Assembly: GCA_016124575.1 (NCBI GenBank)
Contig: WGNM01000039.1
Coordinates: 1-64,000 of the forward strand
Length of the DNA stretch: 64,000 nt
Direction of reading: 5' to 3'
Source of the DNA: Cryomorphaceae bacterium
Lineage (GTDB): Bacteria > Bacteroidota > Bacteroidia > Flavobacteriales_D > Sanyastnellaceae
Under the pieces are notes generated by a model. That model was not told the DNA's origin, made no database searches, and worked only from the letters and a program-made list of their open reading frames with translations. The translations under genes were made by a program, and so were the position numbers. Of this stretch, positions 1 to 56,937 are shown one piece after another (the stretch's first letter is position 1; each line of letters begins with the position of its first letter).

Positions 1-3000
1 ACGCGCAGACTGGTTACCACAGTTGTCTGTAGCTGTCCATGTGTAAACTTCTGTCCAACTGTTAGGACAATCTCCTGGGATAGTCTCTACAGATGGTGTG
101 ATCTCTACGTTGTCGTCACAGTTATCAGTAGCTGTTGGTGCTACAAGGTTGATCGACGCGCTGCACTCGATAGTTGTTTCTTCATCTTGTCCTGAAAGAA
201 CTGGTGAAACTGTATCGATGATGGTAATCACTTGATCACATGATGACTCATTACCACATGCATCAACTGCAGTCCATGTACGTGTGAAAGTGTACGGACA
301 ATCACCTGTTGTTGCACCATCTACGTATAAGATAGTTGGTGTTGAACAATCGTCGGTTGCTGTCGCAGATCCTGTGTTTGATGGATCAGTTGACTCGGTG
401 CACTCGATGGTAACATCACTTGGACATGCGATAGCTGGTGCTGCGAAGTCGTTGATAGTGATGATCTGAACACATGATGATTCGTTTCCACATGCATCAA
501 CTGCAGTCCATGTACGCTCGAAGCTAGCAGGACAATCTGTTCCGGCTACTCCGTCTGCATAAGACACAGTGAATGTTGAACAGTTGTCTGTTACTACAGG
601 CTCTCCTGCAAACTCAGGATCTGATGATCCATTGTCGCAGTTTACTGTGTAAGGAGCTGGACATGTGATTACTGGTGCTTCTGTATCTGTTACAGTCAAG
701 ACTTGAGTTGCAGAAACTTCGTTTCCACAATCATCAATCGCAGACCATGTGCGAGTGATTTCATAACCACAAGCAAGTTGTTCAGTAGTGGCTGAAAGCG
801 CTACGATAACGTTATCGTCGCAGTTGTCTTGCGCATATACAATCGCTGAAGGAATAGCATCGTTGCAGTTGATTGTTGCATCAGCAGGAACTCCGTAAAG
901 TACTGGTGCTGTAACATCCACAACGTGAATAACACTCGTAACTGTGGTAGAGTTACCACAATCATCGGTAGCAGTGCAAGACTGATAGAAGTCGTACAAA
1001 CAACCTACAGGAACCATCCAAGTAGTTACGGTAACTTCAATTGTCTGGTCACAGTTATCTGTGAATGTCATTCCAACAGCTGGAAGGTCTTCTTCGCAGC
1101 TGATAGTTATTTCCTGACCAACACCATCAGCAACTGGAGCGATGGTATCGTCGATAGTAATTGTTTGAACTTCGGTTGATGTGTTTCCACAAGGATCAAT
1201 GGCAGTCCATGTACGCTCAAAAGAGTAAGGACAAGATCCAGAAACAGGACCGTCTACATATGACACAACCGGAGTTGAGCAATCGTCAGAGGCGGTTGCT
1301 GAACCAGTAACACTTGGATCAGTAGATTCAGTGCATTCAATGGTGATATCTGAAGGTACAACCAGAACCGGTGCCAAGAAATCATTGATTGATATCATCT
1401 GAACATATACCGATTGATTGTTACAATTGTCAATGGCTGTCCACACACGCTCAAAGCTAGCAGGACAATCTGTTCCAGCAATTCCGTCAGCATAAGTTAA
1501 TGACACAGCATCGTCACAGTTATCGGTTACCACAGGCATGCCAGCAAATTGAGGATCAGACGATCCATTGTCACAATTCACAACGTAATCTTCTGGTACA
1601 AATGTGAATACTGGACTAGTGGTATCAACAACAGTAATTACTTGAGAAACAGTAGTCTCATTCTGACAATCGTCAATCGCTGTCCATGATTTATGGATTT
1701 CATAACCACACTCAAGTGCTATCTCTTCGTATGTTGGGATAACTTCCAAATCATCATCGCAGTTGTCTACGAAAGTTGGCATATCCGAAGGAATCACCTC
1801 ATCGCATTCAATGGTTACTGAAGCTGGAGTGAAAGTCGCCACTGGAGCAGTTGTATCGAGAACAGTAATGGTTACAGTTGCCTCATTCGAGTTACCACAG
1901 TCATCTGTTGCACGACACCACTTCACGTATTCGAATCCACAATCCAAATCATTCACCCAGTTGTCTACTTCTAGGTACAAATCATTATCGCAGTTGTCTA
2001 GGTATGTAACAACGATTTGAGGAATTTCCTGATCACACTCGATTGTTTGATCTGGAGTTTGGAAAGTAATAACTGGAGCTACGTTATCGATTACAGTGAT
2101 CGTTTGATCGACTATAGTTGTGTTTCCACATTCGTTAGTAGCAGTCCATGTGCGAACGATTTCGTGACCACAATCAAGGTCATTCTGAACAAACGTGAAG
2201 TTCACATCAGAAAGTCCGTAGATAAAGTCAGAGAAAGTCAAAATTGCAGCAACAGGAATAGTTGCATCACAGTTGATCGTCAGATCTTGTGGCTCAGCGC
2301 CTTCAAGAACTGGGTAAGGACAAGTTGTGATACCAGCATCGAAGCTTAGATCATCGTCTTGACCGTAAACAACAGTGAATGGTACAGTAGCTCCTGTTAA
2401 TGGATTTGCATCTGAATCTAGTTCGTCATCAGATTCTTTATCCAAAGCAGTGAATACGAAGTCGGTCGGAAGAGTCGTTGGATCAAATACAATGATGTAT
2501 TCACCAGCAAGAACATCTTCGAACAAGTAGAATCCATTTTCGTCGGTAGATTGAGTTGCAACGGTTACATCGTCATCAGTTCCGAAAACACCATCTGTGC
2601 CAGCGGTAACTAGATTAACTGTTACACCCTCTACTCCATTTTCACCAGCATCTTGGATACCGTCATTGTCGTTATCGTACCATACAAAGTTTCCAATGTT
2701 TGTTGGGATAAAGATACCAGCATCAAAATCGAGGTAATCTTCATCAATTCCAAGCTCGTAACAAGCGGTAGCTCCGTTCTCATCTGCGTCAGAATCTGAA
2801 GCATCATCAGCAGAGTTTGCTGTTGTGAAGTCATATCCAGCAGGAAGACCTGAGAATACTACGTAGTATGATACTCCTGGCTCAAGGTTAGAGAACAGGT
2901 AAAGTCCGTTAGCATCGGTTTCAGTAGACTGAATAGCATCTGTTTCTCCACAGATGAACAACTCAACCGTTACACCTTCAACGCCGTTTTCACCAGCATC

Positions 3001-6000
3001 TTGGAAACCGTCTTGGTCAATATCTTCCCAAACATAATTCCCTATTGAACCTGTTGGGTTGTTGATACCCGCATCGAGTGTATCGTTAAATTCACCTGGA
3101 GCTAATTCAACACATGCAGTTTCACCGTTCAGACCAGCGTCAGAATCGGTTGCATCGTTACCATTGTTTTGTGGTGAGAACACGTAGTCGGCAGGTAGAC
3201 CTGAGAATACTACGTAGTATGATACTCCTGGCTCAAGGTTAGAGAACAGGTAAAGTCCGTTAGAATCGGTTTCGGTAGACTGAATAGCATCTGTTTCTCC
3301 ACAGATGAACAACTCAACCGTTACACCTTCAACACCGTTTTCATCAGCATCTTGGATACCATCGCGATCAGTATCGAACCAAACGTAGTTACCTAGAGAG
3401 GCAACCGGCTGGTTGATACCCGCATCGAGTGTATCGTTAAACTCACCTGGTGCTAGTTCAACACATGCAGTTTCACCGTTCAGACCAGCGTCAGAATCGG
3501 TTGCATCGTTGCCATTGTTTTGTGGTGAGAACACGTAGTCGGCAGGAAGACCTGAGAATACTACGTAGTATGATACTCCTGGCTCAAGATTAGAGAACAG
3601 GTAAAGTCCGTTAGCATCGGTTTCGGTAGACTGAATAGCATCTGTTTCTCCACAGATGAACAACTCAACCGTTACACCTTCAACACCGTTTTCACCAGCA
3701 TCTTGGATACCATCGCGATCAGCATCGAACCATACGTAGTTGCCTAAAGAGGCACATTCAACAGCAGTGAGGGTGATTGGTCCAAGATCAACTGGACATT
3801 CATCATTACCCCATCTTACGAATAAGTTGTAAGTACCTGCCGAAAGGTTATTGAAAGAAGCTGAACCAGAGTTATCAGCAACGTTCAAAGGATATGTTAC
3901 ACCACCGTCAAGAGAGAACTCTATGCTTGAGCGGTTAGGATTATCGTTAAAAGAGAAAGTGATTGTCCCGTCATTTTCTAGACAAACAGGGTTTGTAGAA
4001 GAAACAGACACCTCAGGAAGTTCATGAATAGTAATCGTTACTTCATCTTGAGCAACACAACCTGCACAATCTGTTACAATCACAGAGTAAGTACCTGATT
4101 CGTCAACAACGATTGACTCAGTTGTTTCGCCTGTTGACCACACATAGGTTGTTTCAAGAGAAGGGATATCACAAGGAGTTAGGTTCGAGAACCATTCAGT
4201 GCAACCACCGAAGGTACCAGCAGTCCACGCACCCAAACCGAACTGGTTTGAGTTGAAGCCAGCACCATTTGCAAGGATATAGTGTTTTTCTGAAACTTTT
4301 TCTTCCACAGTAAACTCAGCACCATTGATGGTAATTGTGCCTAAAAAAGAAGTGTAAAATGATTCAGGGCCATTGATGTTATTCAAATAGCACGATGAAT
4401 TCCATGTAGTTCCGTTATTTGCTTTGTCATAGAGTACGACATCGACGATGCCTACTTGGCCGTTACGAGTAATAGAACCTGTAATACGAGCTGTATTGTC
4501 GGCAAACTCTGTCAATTTCAGATCGTTACCAGCCTGCCAAATTGAATGAGATCCAGCGCAACCGGCAGCTCTTTGGAAAATCACACCCGTTCCTGGTGTT
4601 GCGAAGCAGCTAGCTGGAGCAATCGCATTACCCATTGTGTAGCAAGCGATGATTTCATCACAAACGGTTTCACCTGCTGCATTTGCAGTAAGCGTAATTG
4701 ATTCGCCTTCACAAACAGAAAGGCCTGGTTCAGCATCGATTGAAACAGACAAGTCACAATCAGGGTTACAGTAATCTGGAGCCACGTTCCAAACTTGGTC
4801 TTCACAATCGATTACTGTGTATTGTTCGTCGAAAGCAGCTGTATTCCAGTTGTCGGCAACGATACGCCACATTGCACCTACGTGAGTAGTAACAATGATA
4901 TGCTCACCTGGGCCCAATTCGATAACGAACTGATCACCACTTGGAAGCCATTCGTAAACATCAACGATACAATTACCGAGGTTTTTGATTTCTAGTTCAG
5001 TTGGATCAACAGTTAAGTTTACCTCATCTGTTGCAGAGCAACCAGAGCAATCGGTAACAGTTACGGTGTAAGTTCCAGATGCATTTGCAACAACTGTAGC
5101 GCTGTTTGCAACACCTACGATACCCGGACCGCTCCATGTATAAGTAACATCATTTACAGGTGTGCCTTGCGTTGTATATTCAACATAGTCAACACGGAAA
5201 GCGCATGAGCCATTGTCTTGAACACGAATATAACGAGCAGGAGCTGCAAGAGTGTAGCAAAATTCTTGGTATGAGTTATTCGAGAACGTTTGAGCAGAAA
5301 CCACAGTAACGAAATCGCTATTTGGGTTTGTCGAAGCCTTAATTTTCGCGCTAGAATTGGTTGTTGTAGAACCATTGCAGTGTTCCAACTTCATGTTAGC
5401 ACAGATTTGAGTACCGGCTGGCACTACAACACCTAGGTCAAGCGTCACGAAAGAAGCACCTTGACCAGAGAGTGTCCACAATTTTGTTCCAGCGTTATCG
5501 CCACAAACGGCAGAAGCGCTTGGGTTTTCTAACCAACCACCGGTTACACCGAGCGTGTGGTTACAATCGCTATTAGATTCAGTAGAGCAATCAGCGGCAC
5601 CAGCGACAGTTGCAGTAAAAGATGCCTCAGCGACACCACAAGCAACTTGATCGTCACCAGCATTTACAGACAGCGTGCTATTTACACAAGGGTCACAAGA
5701 AGTTGTATTGAACGCCAACTCAATGTTAGCAACACATACATCCTGAAGAATACCATTATCGTTACCGAATTGATAGAAGTTAGAATCGAAAGTATTCAGA
5801 CCACCGTAGTTGTAGTTGAAAGTGGCTGGATCAACATTGAAGGTTACTGTTTTCGAACCTTCTGGCTCACAAACATTGCAGATGTAAGGTAACTCAGTTG
5901 GATCGTAGTAACCGATCACTTGACCATTTATTTCGATTGGGTAGGCTGTCGCAATTTGTTGAACACTGTTCCAGCTTTGAGAAAGGCTGTAATCAGCCGC

Positions 6001-12893: not shown

Positions 12894-12916
12894 CGTTGAT
12901 TCACTATCAAAAAAAT

Positions 12917-12955
12917 TATCCGCAATTGAACCAGCCAAGAGGTCAAAAGCGGATA
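12917..12955. repeat. Palindromic intergenic repeat, copy A
   Basis: Left arm TATCCGCAATTGAACC, loop of 8 bases, right arm GGTCAAAAGCGGATA. Same family as the copies at 17319, 17423, 18614, 37876 and 37994. It lies between two convergent genes, where the hairpin could also act as a bidirectional terminator. Confidence 0.8.
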
Positions 12956-12977
12956 GGTATTTATTGCGCATCGCAGG

Positions 12978-17312: not shown

Positions 17313-17318
17313 TTCATA

Positions 17319-17358
17319 TATCCGCTTTTGAACTGTGCAATTAGTGCAATTGCGGATA
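17319..17358. repeat. Palindromic intergenic repeat, copy B
   Basis: TATCCGCTTTTGAAC on the left and GTGCAATTGCGGATA on the right, 40 bases in total. It directly follows the xth stop. The bases after it (GATTATTGAAATTTCAG) are repeated after copy C, so B and C are a duplication about 104 bases apart. The rest of the gap from 17313 to 17621 shows no gene. Confidence 0.8.
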
Positions 17359-17422
17359 GATTATTGAAATTTCAGAAACCAAGGATTTTCGTTCTATTTT
17401 TAAGCAATTGCTATGACCCATT

Positions 17423-17462
17423 TATCCGCTTTTAAACTGTTCAAATAGTGCAATTGCGGATA
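17423..17462. repeat. Palindromic intergenic repeat, copy C
   Basis: TATCCGCTTTTAAAC on the left and GTGCAATTGCGGATA on the right, 40 bases. Together with its downstream flank (GATTATTGAATTTTCAG) it duplicates copy B. It lies 160 bases from the 3' end of the transposase gene. Confidence 0.8.
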
Positions 17463-17621
17463 GATTATTGAATTTTCAGGAACTAATATTCTTCATTTTC
17501 ACTTGTCCCAACGAAACCACATCAAATTCAAAGAAAACACACGTCAAAGTGACAAAAACCGAAATTGAAACCTGACCTAAAAATTTGTACCAATTCATTT
17601 AGAAATAATCACTCTCAAATG

Positions 17622-18491
17622 CTACCAGGCGGTTGTCATCACCAGCTTTAAAAGTATTTCCGCCGATTGTCGTCTCTTTACAAAAGCATTGAAATAATTA
17701 AACTCCTGCAAATATTGCTGAACGTACCTCATCGAAACTCCTCTATGGACACGTAATAATTTATTTTTCACCTTGTGAAACAATGCCGATTTGAATTGAC
17801 GTTCCACGAGAAGATGTTTACTAAACTGATCTTGATGTTTCACATTCTGACTCGTTATCTTTTTAAGAGCGAATCGTCGTCTAGGGTGATCCTTTTCGCA
17901 AGGACTTAGTTCATGTAACACGATATATTTCGGCTCATTAAGAATTAATATTTTCAACCGTTTGTTAGCGTTCTCAACTGGTAGCTCTGTAATTTTAGCT
18001 TTTGTCTGCTGAGTACTGGCCCATTCGCATAGACATCCCGTAGCATGTTTTGGGATCTTAACTTCCTTGACATCCAAGAAACCAGAGAAGGCAACATCTT
18101 CGGGGATAACTGAGCATTTAGAATCTTGTATATAAACGCCAATTGCAGACCTTAGTTTATGAAGCAAATACCAGGCAGGTTCGTATCGTTTGAAACCTAA
18201 TCTACTCTTCAAAGACAAAGCAGATATCTCGCCGCATTCCTGAGTGAACAAATTCATAGCTTTCAACCACAGACTAATTGGAAGATTGCTATTCTTCATT
18301 ATTGTACCACCCTTCAAGGTAATCGTATTGCTGCATTTCTTGCACTGCCATCTCCACCTGGCTTGCATCCAATTGAATTTTTTACACCCACAATTAGTGC
18401 ATTCGAGACCTATGGACTCTCTCAATTCTTTGACGAAAAGTCTCGATTTGGTTTCCGATCTCAAGATCGATTGGTTTAGCTTTTTACACAT
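17622..18491 (-). CDS. Degenerate IS1595-like transposase
   Basis: A 289-residue protein matching the layout of IS1595-family transposases. A zinc ribbon comes first (CTNCGCKKFNW, then RWRWQCKKC, about residues 32-53). A helical DNA-binding segment follows (GGTIMKNSNLPISLWLKAMN, then AWYLLHKLRSAIG), then the region of the ISXO2-like DDE domain. The tail GVSMRYVQQYLQEFNYF matches the family C-terminus. The first catalytic block, normally VDETY preceded by EVE, reads FLDVKEV, so the catalytic Asp appears replaced by Lys, and I cannot find the second Asp. The frame is intact. Palindromic repeats flank it on both sides (copies B/C and D). It may be a dead transposase under decay or a domesticated DNA-binding protein. 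Confidence 0.7.
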   Translation of the reverse strand: MCKKLNQSILRSETKSRLFVKELRESIGLECTNCGCKKFNWMQARWRWQCKKCSNTITLKGGTIMKNSNLPISLWLKAMNLFTQECGEISALSLKSRLGFKRYEPAWYLLHKLRSAIGVYIQDSKCSVIPEDVAFSGFLDVKEVKIPKHATGCLCEWASTQQTKAKITELPVENANKRLKILILNEPKYIVLHELSPCEKDHPRRRFALKKITSQNVKHQDQFSKHLLVERQFKSALFHKVKNKLLRVHRGVSMRYVQQYLQEFNYFNAFVKRRQSAEILLKLVMTTAW

Positions 18492-18613
18492 TGAATTTTA
18501 GTTTAAAACCATGAATTAAATAATTTATCCAATGCTATCACAAGCAACTTTGTGGATGAGCAATTCTATTTTACGAATGCAGATTTATCTGTAATTTTTC
18601 GCTAATTTCAACC

Positions 18614-18652
18614 TATCCGCAATTGGACAGGCCCATAGTTCAATTGCGGATA
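18614..18652. repeat. Palindromic intergenic repeat, copy D
   Basis: TATCCGCAATTGGAC on the left, 9-base loop, GTTCAATTGCGGATA on the right. It sits between the divergent transposase gene and the secreted-protein gene at 18673. The transposase gene is thus enclosed between copies C and D. Confidence 0.85.
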
Positions 18653-18672
18653 GAAATTTATAATCCATAACC

Positions 18673-37874: not shown

Positions 37875-37875
37875 T

Positions 37876-37918
37876 TATCCGCAATTGAACGTGTGAACGT
37901 CCAGTTCAATTGCGGATA
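37876..37918. repeat. Palindromic intergenic repeat, copy E
   Basis: TATCCGCAATTGAAC on the left, 13-base loop, GTTCAATTGCGGATA on the right: arms are perfect complements and extend two bases further on each side (37874-37920). It lies immediately behind the terminator hairpin. Confidence 0.9.
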
Positions 37919-37993
37919 ATAGTCATTACCCCCCCCTTTATTTTGACGGTTTTGCACCAACTTAAACACCCCTCGATATACAAACTTTAAACC

Positions 37994-38037
37994 TATCCGC
38001 AATCGAACCAGCCCCCCGCGCAGTTCAATTGCGGATA
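37994..38037. repeat. Palindromic intergenic repeat, copy F
   Basis: TATCCGCAATCGAAC on the left, 14-base GC-rich loop, GTTCAATTGCGGATA on the right. It lies 75 bases from copy E, in the same gap between two same-strand genes, 25 bases before the GH13 lipoprotein ATG. Confidence 0.9.
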
Positions 38038-38062
38038 ACAATTTGAATACCCCTCACAGACA

Positions 38063-49471: not shown

Positions 49472-50005
49472 ATTATACGCATGTTTACAAATGCGGAAAG
49501 GAAATAAAGCGAAATCGTTAATAAAAAAATCACAAATAACTGTATACCAGAGACTTATTCACCATTGCTTATTGTACGTATGTTTGCAAAACGAACCCGA
49601 TTTTTACGGTTTTGCAACTTTCCGTATAAATTAATTCCACTTCAAATTAATGTCTCCTAATACGCCCCAATCAACAACAAACCGCCATTAAATTAGCTCA
49701 GAAATAAACCGAAATTTGAAAATTTGCAAACTCCCGTATAATTATTTTTGTCCACCTATTTGATTTCTCACTTCTCCTTCGCAACTTCGTTCTAACAAAC
49801 CCCCATGAGGAACTGCCTTCCAATAGCGCTGCCATGCGCCCGAAAGGCGAAACAAATACGGAAATCTACCCCGAAAGCCGCTGAATCGGCAACCATCTAA
49901 TTGACCTCAGGTCGAAACCGGTTGAAAATTCAAAACCCCAAACAATCTTTTTCCTAGTATAAACCTCTAGCAGTTTTTCTTAATCTGCTACTTATCTATG
50001 CAAGC
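49472..50005. other. 534-base gap without a recognised gene; hairpin-rich second half
   Basis: The first half is AT-rich and holds imperfect direct repeats: TACGCATGTTTACAAA (49476) and TACGTATGTTTGCAAA (about 49575), and TTTGCAACTTTCCGTATAA (about 49613) and TTTGCAAACTCCCGTATAA (about 49723). The stretch 49805-49925 is more GC-rich and can form several short hairpins in series: GGAA/TTCC, GCGC/GCGC, GCC/GGC, GCCG/CGGC and GACC/GGTC. It may encode a structured RNA or be the leader of the SET-domain gene. I recognise no known RNA family. Confidence 0.35.
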
Positions 50006-54966: not shown

Positions 54967-56937
54967 ATGTTCGACATAATTGAGCTGAATAGCAAGAAAG
55001 TTGCTGAGTTGCGTGAGATTGCTAAAGACTTGGAAATCAAGCAATTTGACAAACTAAAAAAGCAAGACCTTATTTACCAAATCCTTGATGAACAAGCTGT
55101 AAAGCCTGTTAAAGGTCAAGTGAAGGTAGAGACCCCAAAAGCAGAAGCACCTGCTAAATCAAGAAACACGAGAAAGCCTGCAGAGACTAAGACCGAAGAG
55201 ATTGCCTTTCCGGAAGAAAAACCAGCAGTTGACAAGCCTCGAAATGAACGACCTGCAGACCGTGAGCGCAGAGACAATCGCGCACGAAACGACAGACAAA
55301 ATGGTCCACGCGATGAGAATTCTCCACGCGAAGAAAGAGCGCCAAGAGAAGAAAGAGCACCTCGCGAAGATCGTGGTCAACGAGAAGAAAGAGCGACGCG
55401 CGAAGATCGTGGATTGAGAGAGCCTCGTGAGCCTCGTGAAGAAAGAGCACCGCGCGAAAACCGCGAACCGCGTGAAGGTCGTGACAATCGTGAACCGAGA
55501 AACAATCGCGACAACCGCGATCGTGAACCACGCGAAAACAGAGACAACCGCGAGCCGAGAGAAAACCGAGACAATCGCGAGCCGCGCGATAACCGTGAAC
55601 CGAGAGAAAATCGCGACAATCGCGAACCGCGTGAACCACGCGAGCCACGCGAAAACCGTGATCAAAATGATAACCGCGAGCGCAGAGACGACCGCAACCC
55701 CAATAGAAATCAAAATCCGAACCAGAACCCAAATCAGAACCCGAATCAGAACCCGAATCAGAACCCAAATCAGCGTCGAGAAGATCAACGCGTTGGAAAA
55801 GCTGATGAGCATGGGTACAACTTCGACGGACTAATCATTGCTGAAGGTGTCCTTGAAATGATGCCTGACGGTTATGGATTTATGCGATCTTCAGATTTCA
55901 ACTACTTGAACTCTCCTGACGACGTTTACGTTTCTCAATCGCAGGTAAAACTATACGGCTTGCAAACAGGTGACACCATCCGTGGTGCCGTTCGTCCGCC
56001 TAGAGAAGGTGAAAAATACTTCCCTCTCATCAAGGTAGATAAAATCAACGGAAGAGATCCTGCTTTTGTCCGCGACCGCGTACCGTTTAAATTCCTTACA
56101 CCCCTCTTCCCTACTGAGCGCTTCCACTTGGCAGATAAAAACAGCAACGTATCGATGCGCATCATGGATTTGTTTGCACCAATAGGAAAAGGACAACGTG
56201 GAATGATTGTATCGCAGCCGAAGACAGGTAAAACGACCTTGTTGAAAGACGTTGCGAATGCGATTGCTAAAAACCACCCCGAAGTTTATTTGATCATTTT
56301 GCTGATTGATGAACGTCCGGAAGAAGTTACCGATATGAAACGCAGCGTAAATGCTGAAGTTATCGCCTCAACATTCGATGAGCCGGCAGACCGCCACGTG
56401 AAAATCGCAAACCTTGTTTTGGAGAAAGCGAAACGTATGGTTGAGTGCGGACACGACGTGTGCATCTTGCTTGATAGCATCACACGTTTGGCAAGAGCCT
56501 ACAACACTGTATCTCCAGCATCTGGTAAAGTGCTTACTGGTGGTGTTGATGCAAATGCGCTACACAAACCGAAACGCTTCTTTGGAGCTGCTAGAAACAT
56601 CGAGAATGGTGGTTCGTTGTCTATCATCGCTACTGCGCTTACAGATACCGGATCGAAAATGGACGAAGTGATCTTCGAAGAATTTAAAGGAACGGGTAAC
56701 ATGGAATTGCAACTAGATCGTCGGATTTCGAACCGTCGCATCTATCCTGCAATCGATATCCTCACTTCTGGAACGCGTCGTGAAGATTTGCTGCTTGAAA
56801 AAGACGTGCTACAGCGCATTTGGATTTTGAGAAAGCACTTGGCCGACATGAATCCTATTGAAGCCATGGAATTCATAAAAGACCGCATCACGAGCACGAA
56901 GAGCAACGAAGAGTTCCTCATTTCGATGAATAGCTAA
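54967..56937 (+). CDS. rho: Transcription termination factor Rho with a long disordered insertion
   Basis: A 656-residue hexameric RNA helicase. The Rho N domain (1-45: [20 protein letters not shown]) is followed by a disordered, highly charged insertion (about 50-275) made of Arg/Glu/Asp/Asn repeats ([27 protein letters not shown]) and a run of NPNQ units. The cold-shock-type RNA-binding domain (about 280-360: [20 protein letters not shown]) and RecA-like ATPase follow, with Walker [15 protein letters not shown], Walker [17 protein letters not shown] and the Q/R-loop segments ([23 protein letters not shown]). E. coli Rho has 419 residues. Such insertions in Bacteroides Rho promote phase separation; the same role here is inference. 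Confidence 0.96.
55712..55773 (+). repeat. 12-bp tandem repeat encoding NPNQ units in rho
   Basis: About five copies of a 12-base unit (AATCAGAACCCG and close variants) follow one another in frame. Slippage would change the insertion length by four residues without disrupting the frame. Confidence 0.8.

Follow-up and report, generated by a model that had tools for sequence, protein, structure and literature searches.

REP/REPIN palindromes and their RAYT (TnpA_REP) transposases (PMC2817692, PMC3116915, PMC8266576) are the closest described systems. RAYT genes are flanked by their own REPs (PMC2817692), and distinct single-copy RAYTs each lie next to their own REPIN family (PMC3116915). As enzymes, RAYTs belong to the HUH Y1 tyrosine transposases of the IS200/IS605 type and retain catalysis on single-stranded REPs; the REPs number in the hundreds, usually above 100. 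A further comparator is the IS1595 family of insertion sequences (PMC8101967), and a literature search, mainly of freely accessible papers, found no paper on a REP-like system linked to IS1595. The window analyzed here is a 64,000-nucleotide stretch on contig C44 of a draft genome (the source genome, G000; 3.68 Mb in 61 contigs), compared with a sister species represented by MAG JANRAA01 (G001; Flavobacteriales, draft, 85% complete), the only other genus genome examined, which is syntenic at about 85% nucleotide identity. Here, an IS1595-like gene and its paralogs are best explained, with a probability of roughly two in three, as encoding immobilized, probably catalytically dead IS1595-derived DNA-binding proteins whose cognate sites derive from the ends of the element.

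The genus system resembles REP/RAYT pairs in that immobile, distinct, single-copy transposase-derived genes stand beside their own palindromic families, several cognate gene–repeat families share one genome, the repeats probably come from the ends of the ancestral element, and the two partners co-evolve with compensatory changes. It differs in that the protein is of the DDE/zinc-ribbon IS1595 type without catalytic aspartates, the arms are terminal inverted repeats (TIRs), and the sites are clustered, number only in the tens and keep their positions between species. Since the enzyme class is another and the catalytic residues are missing, the system is REP/RAYT-like in layout without being a member of that group.

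The IS1595-like gene occupies positions 17622–18491 on the minus strand and encodes, by ORF call, a product of 289 aa; the interval 17319–18652 comprises this gene together with its enclosing palindromes. As the original prediction proposed, the gene sits between palindromes B/C (17318–17463) on one side and palindrome D (18613–18653) on the other. Its assignment as an IS1595-derived protein draws on the reading frame, sub-cutoff family matches, catalytic alignment columns, structural models and dN/dS. Specifically, the NCBIfam IS1595 model NF033547 matches the protein at 7e-16, under the model cutoff and over part of the profile, and the hits to two Pfam IS1595 domains stay sub-threshold (Zn_ribbon_IS1595, E = 0.0064). 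The four cysteines of an IS1595-type N-terminal zinc ribbon (C31, C34, C50 and C53) are present in the alignments, followed by HTH-like helices, a degenerate RNase H core lacking the catalytic aspartates D1 and D2, and conserved C-terminal helices. The protein is not of the HUH Y1 (IS200/IS605-like) type, its best family matches being IS1595 domains and its tree placement being among IS1595 transposases. No PADLOC defence family was matched.

D1 and D2 are invariant among 30 canonical relatives; both are present in 36 of 45 other relatives and in none of the 16 genus paralogs, which thus do not retain the DDE catalytic residues. In the predicted structure of a canonical relative, the RNase H strands carry D133 on the first strand and D227 just past the fourth, whereas the model of the window protein shows three strands and then helices, with β4 and β5, the D2-bearing strands of the canonical model, missing. 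A Foldseek search with the window protein returns no match at E ≤ 0.001; the weaker fold matches are DDE transposases (ISCth4 at Z 5.6 with an rmsd of 6.3 over 179; Hermes at Z 5.1 with an rmsd of 3.9 over 125), and these modeled similarities are compatible with DDE ancestry. The earlier description of the protein as DDE/zinc-ribbon in type is sound as to ancestry and fails as to the catalytic residues. Judged from its residues, the lineage is probably catalytically dead, although sequence alone leaves room to imagine that the genus paralogs may perform a chemistry other than DDE catalysis. The gene is nonetheless under purifying selection: against its sister-species ortholog, dN/dS is 0.19 overall, with 0.07 for residues 1–120 (zinc-ribbon/HTH part) and 0.33 for the middle part containing the catalytic remnant. 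Six ortholog pairs span 0.10–0.19 (0.10–0.17 for the five besides the window pair), and a neighboring housekeeping gene gives 0.10.

Palindrome D (18613–18653, core 18615–18651), made of two inverted TIR-like half-sites, lies 121 nt ahead of the start codon as the 5′ site; the sister species has it at the corresponding position with an altered loop. Between it and the gene lies a TIR-like element, TGCTCATCCACAAAGTTGCTTG (18541–18562, minus strand), which is kept in the ortholog alignment and scores weakly with the TIR weight matrix described below; it may represent a sub-terminal TIR, and an ATCC[AG]CAAA-type element is found again upstream of most genus paralogs. On the 3′ side, palindromes B (17318–17359) and C (17422–17463, core 17424–17461) are units 1 and 2 of a 104-bp tandem repeat, a position held by a single palindrome in the sister species. 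Palindrome B has outer stems ATCCGC...GCGGAT at 17320–17357 and asymmetric arms, CAAAA and CAATT, and palindrome C lies about 159 nt past the stop codon. Additional members of the window family are palindrome A (12916–12956), which sits between convergent genes, and palindromes E (37875–37919) and F (37993–38038), whose arms are identical to the sister species at 30/30 positions each and whose loops agree at 7/13 and 7/14, respectively. Farther along, half-sites at 49612–49629 and 49724–49741 (both plus strand), the second 112 bp beyond the first, open a stretch belonging to another family, cognate to the paralog C44:73164. The window also contains tandem repeats of about 234 and 351 bp at 1–4000, probably encoding a large repetitive protein, and low-complexity coding-type repeats at 55250–55780, with units of 18–27 bp and then 12 bp.

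The source genome encodes eight IS1595-like relatives including the window gene, one of them a contig-end fragment, and no catalytically intact IS1595 gene occurs among these eight matches. The sister species holds counterparts of seven of the eight together with further paralogs, and in a protein tree of IS1595 transposases all 16 genus sequences form one clade with support 99/99. Four paralogs (the window gene, C4:109916, C32:61443 and C44:73164) carry a palindrome 114–145 nt upstream of the start codon, as do their orthologs; the arms at C32:61443 are less perfect than those of the other types. The other four of the eight, like the canonical homologues, have no such palindrome, which speaks against the preferred explanation, and none was found beside the more distant genus paralogs. 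The outer stem reads (A/T)TCCGC, or ATCCG(T/C)G in the C44:73164 type, while the inner arms are gene-specific: ..CAATTGAAC for the window gene, ..CAATTGTACA for C4, ..CAATCGTATAA for C32 and ..GAAGTTGCAA for C44:73164. On the 3′ side, the flanking cognate repeats are palindromes B/C at the window gene; the C4 gene has one lone half-site there.

Each inner arm recurs at further sites within restricted parts of the genome. The window family, for instance, spans 12–38 kb of contig C44, and the C44:73164 family spans 49–94 kb of the same contig. By whole-genome pattern search, WTCCGCNNT-N10-40-ANNGCGGAW has 38 matches as opposed to 2 for the reversed control, and in the examined loci of both genus genomes there are 204 half-sites as opposed to 1 in reversed sequence. 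Clusters of at least two half-sites of each family fall on contigs totaling 5.5–9.8% of the genome, fractions that lean mainly on the genome-wide pattern searches because loci were chosen around known matches.

The palindrome arms can be traced to the IS1595 element itself. In other Bacteroidota, IS1595 relatives with intact catalytic residues carry ordinary TIRs with the core TCCG[CT]AAT, for example GACTATCCGTAATTAGTACT. A weight matrix built from these canonical TIRs alone was scanned over the regions upstream of the genus genes, and for nearly all paralogs its top match falls either on the arms of the palindrome or on one lone left TIR. Arms score 14.9 at the sister ortholog, 9.2 at C4 and 10.4 at C32; paralogs without a palindrome keep a single left TIR scoring 13.7, 16.9 and 12.3 (L028, L029 and L030), with 95% shuffle levels of 8–9. 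The arms of the window gene itself reach 8.0 and 7.0, slightly short of the 8.8 that marks the 95% shuffle level, and C44:73164-type arms receive no score; both observations count against the preferred explanation. The left end is the clearest, and the right end is mostly lost except at the C4 paralog, where the half-site also stands singly just past the stop codon, in the place of a right TIR. The TIR tips in the palindromes face outwards, so that each palindrome corresponds to left end, loop and right end. Read from its sequence, a palindrome is thus two opposed IS1595 TIRs separated by a short loop, the cargo gone. The initial view that the gene shares no other mobile-element features therefore fails, since the arms of its palindromes are TIRs of the IS1595 type. 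The flanks of 23 palindromes or arrays were compared for the matching 8-mers that an 8-bp target site duplication (TSD) would leave, and these were not clearly in excess.

Relative to IS1595 elements, the zinc ribbon, HTH-like helices, conserved C-terminal helices, TIR sequence and left TIR upstream of the gene are shared, whereas D1/D2 and TSDs are missing, each ortholog group is single-copy and vertically inherited, and the left TIR has become a TIR–loop–TIR palindrome in four paralogs. Relative to MITEs, the palindromes are likewise non-coding with two inverted TIRs; they differ in being about 37–65 bp long, essentially arms plus loop, in lacking a TSD, in the tie of each family to a degenerate resident gene and in showing no insertion polymorphism in two genomes, a partly biased sample.

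The sister species shares the palindrome-bearing genes and the palindromes with their positions and families. Across 13 orthologous palindromes, arms are identical at 370/390 positions (95%), loops at 131/176 (74%) and 40-nt flanks at 755/1040 (73%; p = 8e-24); in the subset reached via genes, the counts are 191/210 (arms) and 413/560 (flanks). Copy-specific arm variants such as AATCG at 37995 are common to both species, which makes homogenization unlikely as the sole cause of arm conservation, and at site C44:74079 both arm halves have altered together in a compensatory manner. These observations bear on two alternatives. That the locus is a decayed IS1595 element with MITE relics, functionless today, would accommodate the degenerate transposase domain, the TIR-like arms and the absent TSDs, yet it is highly improbable given the dN/dS values, the excess of arm over flank conservation and the compensatory changes. 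It is also quite unlikely that the palindromes act as RNA hairpins, terminators, mRNA stabilizers or sites of an unrelated factor, their link to the genes being merely historical: many are intergenic, some lie 20–60 nt past a stop codon, and stems are kept while loops vary, but neighboring genes occur in convergent, tandem and divergent orientation, Rfam returns no match for the palindromes, family identity tracks the nearby paralog in both species, and the arms keep their sequence and not their pairing alone.

Several sites are organized as tandem arrays of palindrome, spacer and palindrome. Palindromes of 42–65 bp alternate with spacers of 40–73 bp that are similar inside one array and unrelated from array to array; a CRISPR-like array is ruled out because spacers within one array are near-identical copies. 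The unit is 100–107 bp (117 bp in one case), as at G000:C4:74383-75149, C24:3-422, C9:49129-49407, C43:166388-166837, C8:13437-13593 and window 17318–17463. Palindrome and spacer lengths are inversely related (r = -0.94), and 295 of 100,000 permutations are equally tight, in a post hoc test that draws on eight arrays, including two orthologous ones. The array at C4:74k holds 8 palindromes and fewer in the sister species, where there is an assembly gap; copy number in tandem arrays is the only change in site content seen between the species. Flanks and spacers were compared to see whether the arrays arose by duplication of a long target or of a fixed flank, with mixed results. A unit near ten helical turns possibly reflects spacing for side-by-side binding, or else a duplication mechanism. 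A bolder reading, which we regard as rather unlikely, is a chromosome-territory system: through its private end-derived palindromes, every one of several dead IS1595 paralogs would bind and so label a separate chromosomal stretch, with a logic like that of ParB/parS or MatP/matS and an independent origin. This tentative reading extends to the arrays, whose unit of roughly ten helical turns (about 103 bp) would stay constant despite differing palindrome and spacer lengths.

Positional stability weighs on whether the sites still move. Wherever the flanks of a site with at least two half-sites were located in both genomes, both species carry the same family there, and two apparent empty sites, single half-sites with two mismatches, are most likely chance matches. 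No gain or loss of sites is seen between the two species at a gene dS of about 0.6–1.3, a degree of site-sharing that is biased upwards because many sister loci were chosen for bearing palindromes; 460 kb of contigs chosen regardless of palindromes contain one single-half-site match, probably due to chance. A true REP/RAYT-like selfish pair, in which the proteins or an active relative in trans still mobilize the palindromes as minimal non-autonomous elements, would account for the cognate families, the palindrome-flanked gene, the TIR–loop–TIR layout and the arrays that change copy number. Moreover, several C44:73164-family sites in the sister species have one shared new outer stem, which could reflect replacement by a spreading variant. 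We nevertheless consider ongoing mobilization unlikely, as the D1/D2 pair is missing in 16/16 genus paralogs, no site presence/absence difference accompanies that divergence, 8-bp target duplications are not seen, and the eight matches in the source genome include no intact IS1595 gene. The earlier suggestion of a REP-like system with an IS1595 relative as its partner is thus partly supported: its central idea agrees with the four cognate upstream palindromes kept in the sister species, while the missing catalytic residues and the absence of any sign of current mobility make a replicating REP/RAYT-type element unlikely. The C4 paralog in the sister MAG (L054, G001:C14:2840-3684) contains stops or a frameshift while its palindromes are intact; it may be a pseudogene, the gene then perhaps being dispensable, or a MAG error.

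Among 399 genomes of the order, core-type palindromes occur only in the two that bear the gene, as had been anticipated: TCCGCAATTG-N10-26-CAATTGCGGA is found in both genus genomes and in 0/397 others. The companion expectation, that homologues are always flanked by palindromes, is contradicted by canonical intact relatives, which have single TIRs, and by distant genus paralogs with a single left TIR. Degenerate relatives outside the genus, in Paenibacillus and other Bacteroidota, were searched as well, and no such palindromes were found next to them. The sister group of the genus clade (L073, L074 and L101, from other Bacteroidota) has degenerate catalytic sites, and L074 of Crocinitomix algicola, with L101 similar, has TIRs that match well (ATACGATTCTCCG..) at its two ends although its site is degenerate; the two are possibly an intermediate stage or elements moved in trans. 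Paenibacillus encodes IS1595-like proteins without either catalytic aspartate (L125, L126, L129, L130 and L131), with P. dendritiformis having a distinct pair (L126 and L129), and neither palindromes nor TIRs were found beside them; they possibly represent an independent domestication.

Collectively, the most economical account is a domestication in which an IS1595 lineage gave up transposition and retained end binding, with both partners under selection. Within one Flavobacteriales genus, a clade of IS1595-family genes would have ceased transposing and become resident DNA-binding proteins, and the palindromes would descend from the element's own ends as two TIRs across a short loop without cargo. 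The zinc-ribbon/HTH part is predicted to bind one half-site and a dimer the inverted pair, and a palindrome upstream of the gene may permit autoregulation. Dispersed sites would be retained for a local benefit of the bound protein, with regulation of nearby genes or organization and marking of the surrounding chromosome stretch as candidates beside autoregulation. Such sites may have spread earlier under an active ancestor and would now change by tandem duplication alone, in units of about 103 bp.

If this account is true, the system would be a second, independently evolved REP/RAYT-like case arising from an unrelated enzyme class. It would also mean that site binding alone can suffice to retain a protein–site pair, with the chemistry apparently gone and selection continuing. 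With four gene–site families in one genus and a sister species available, it would offer a clean comparative system.
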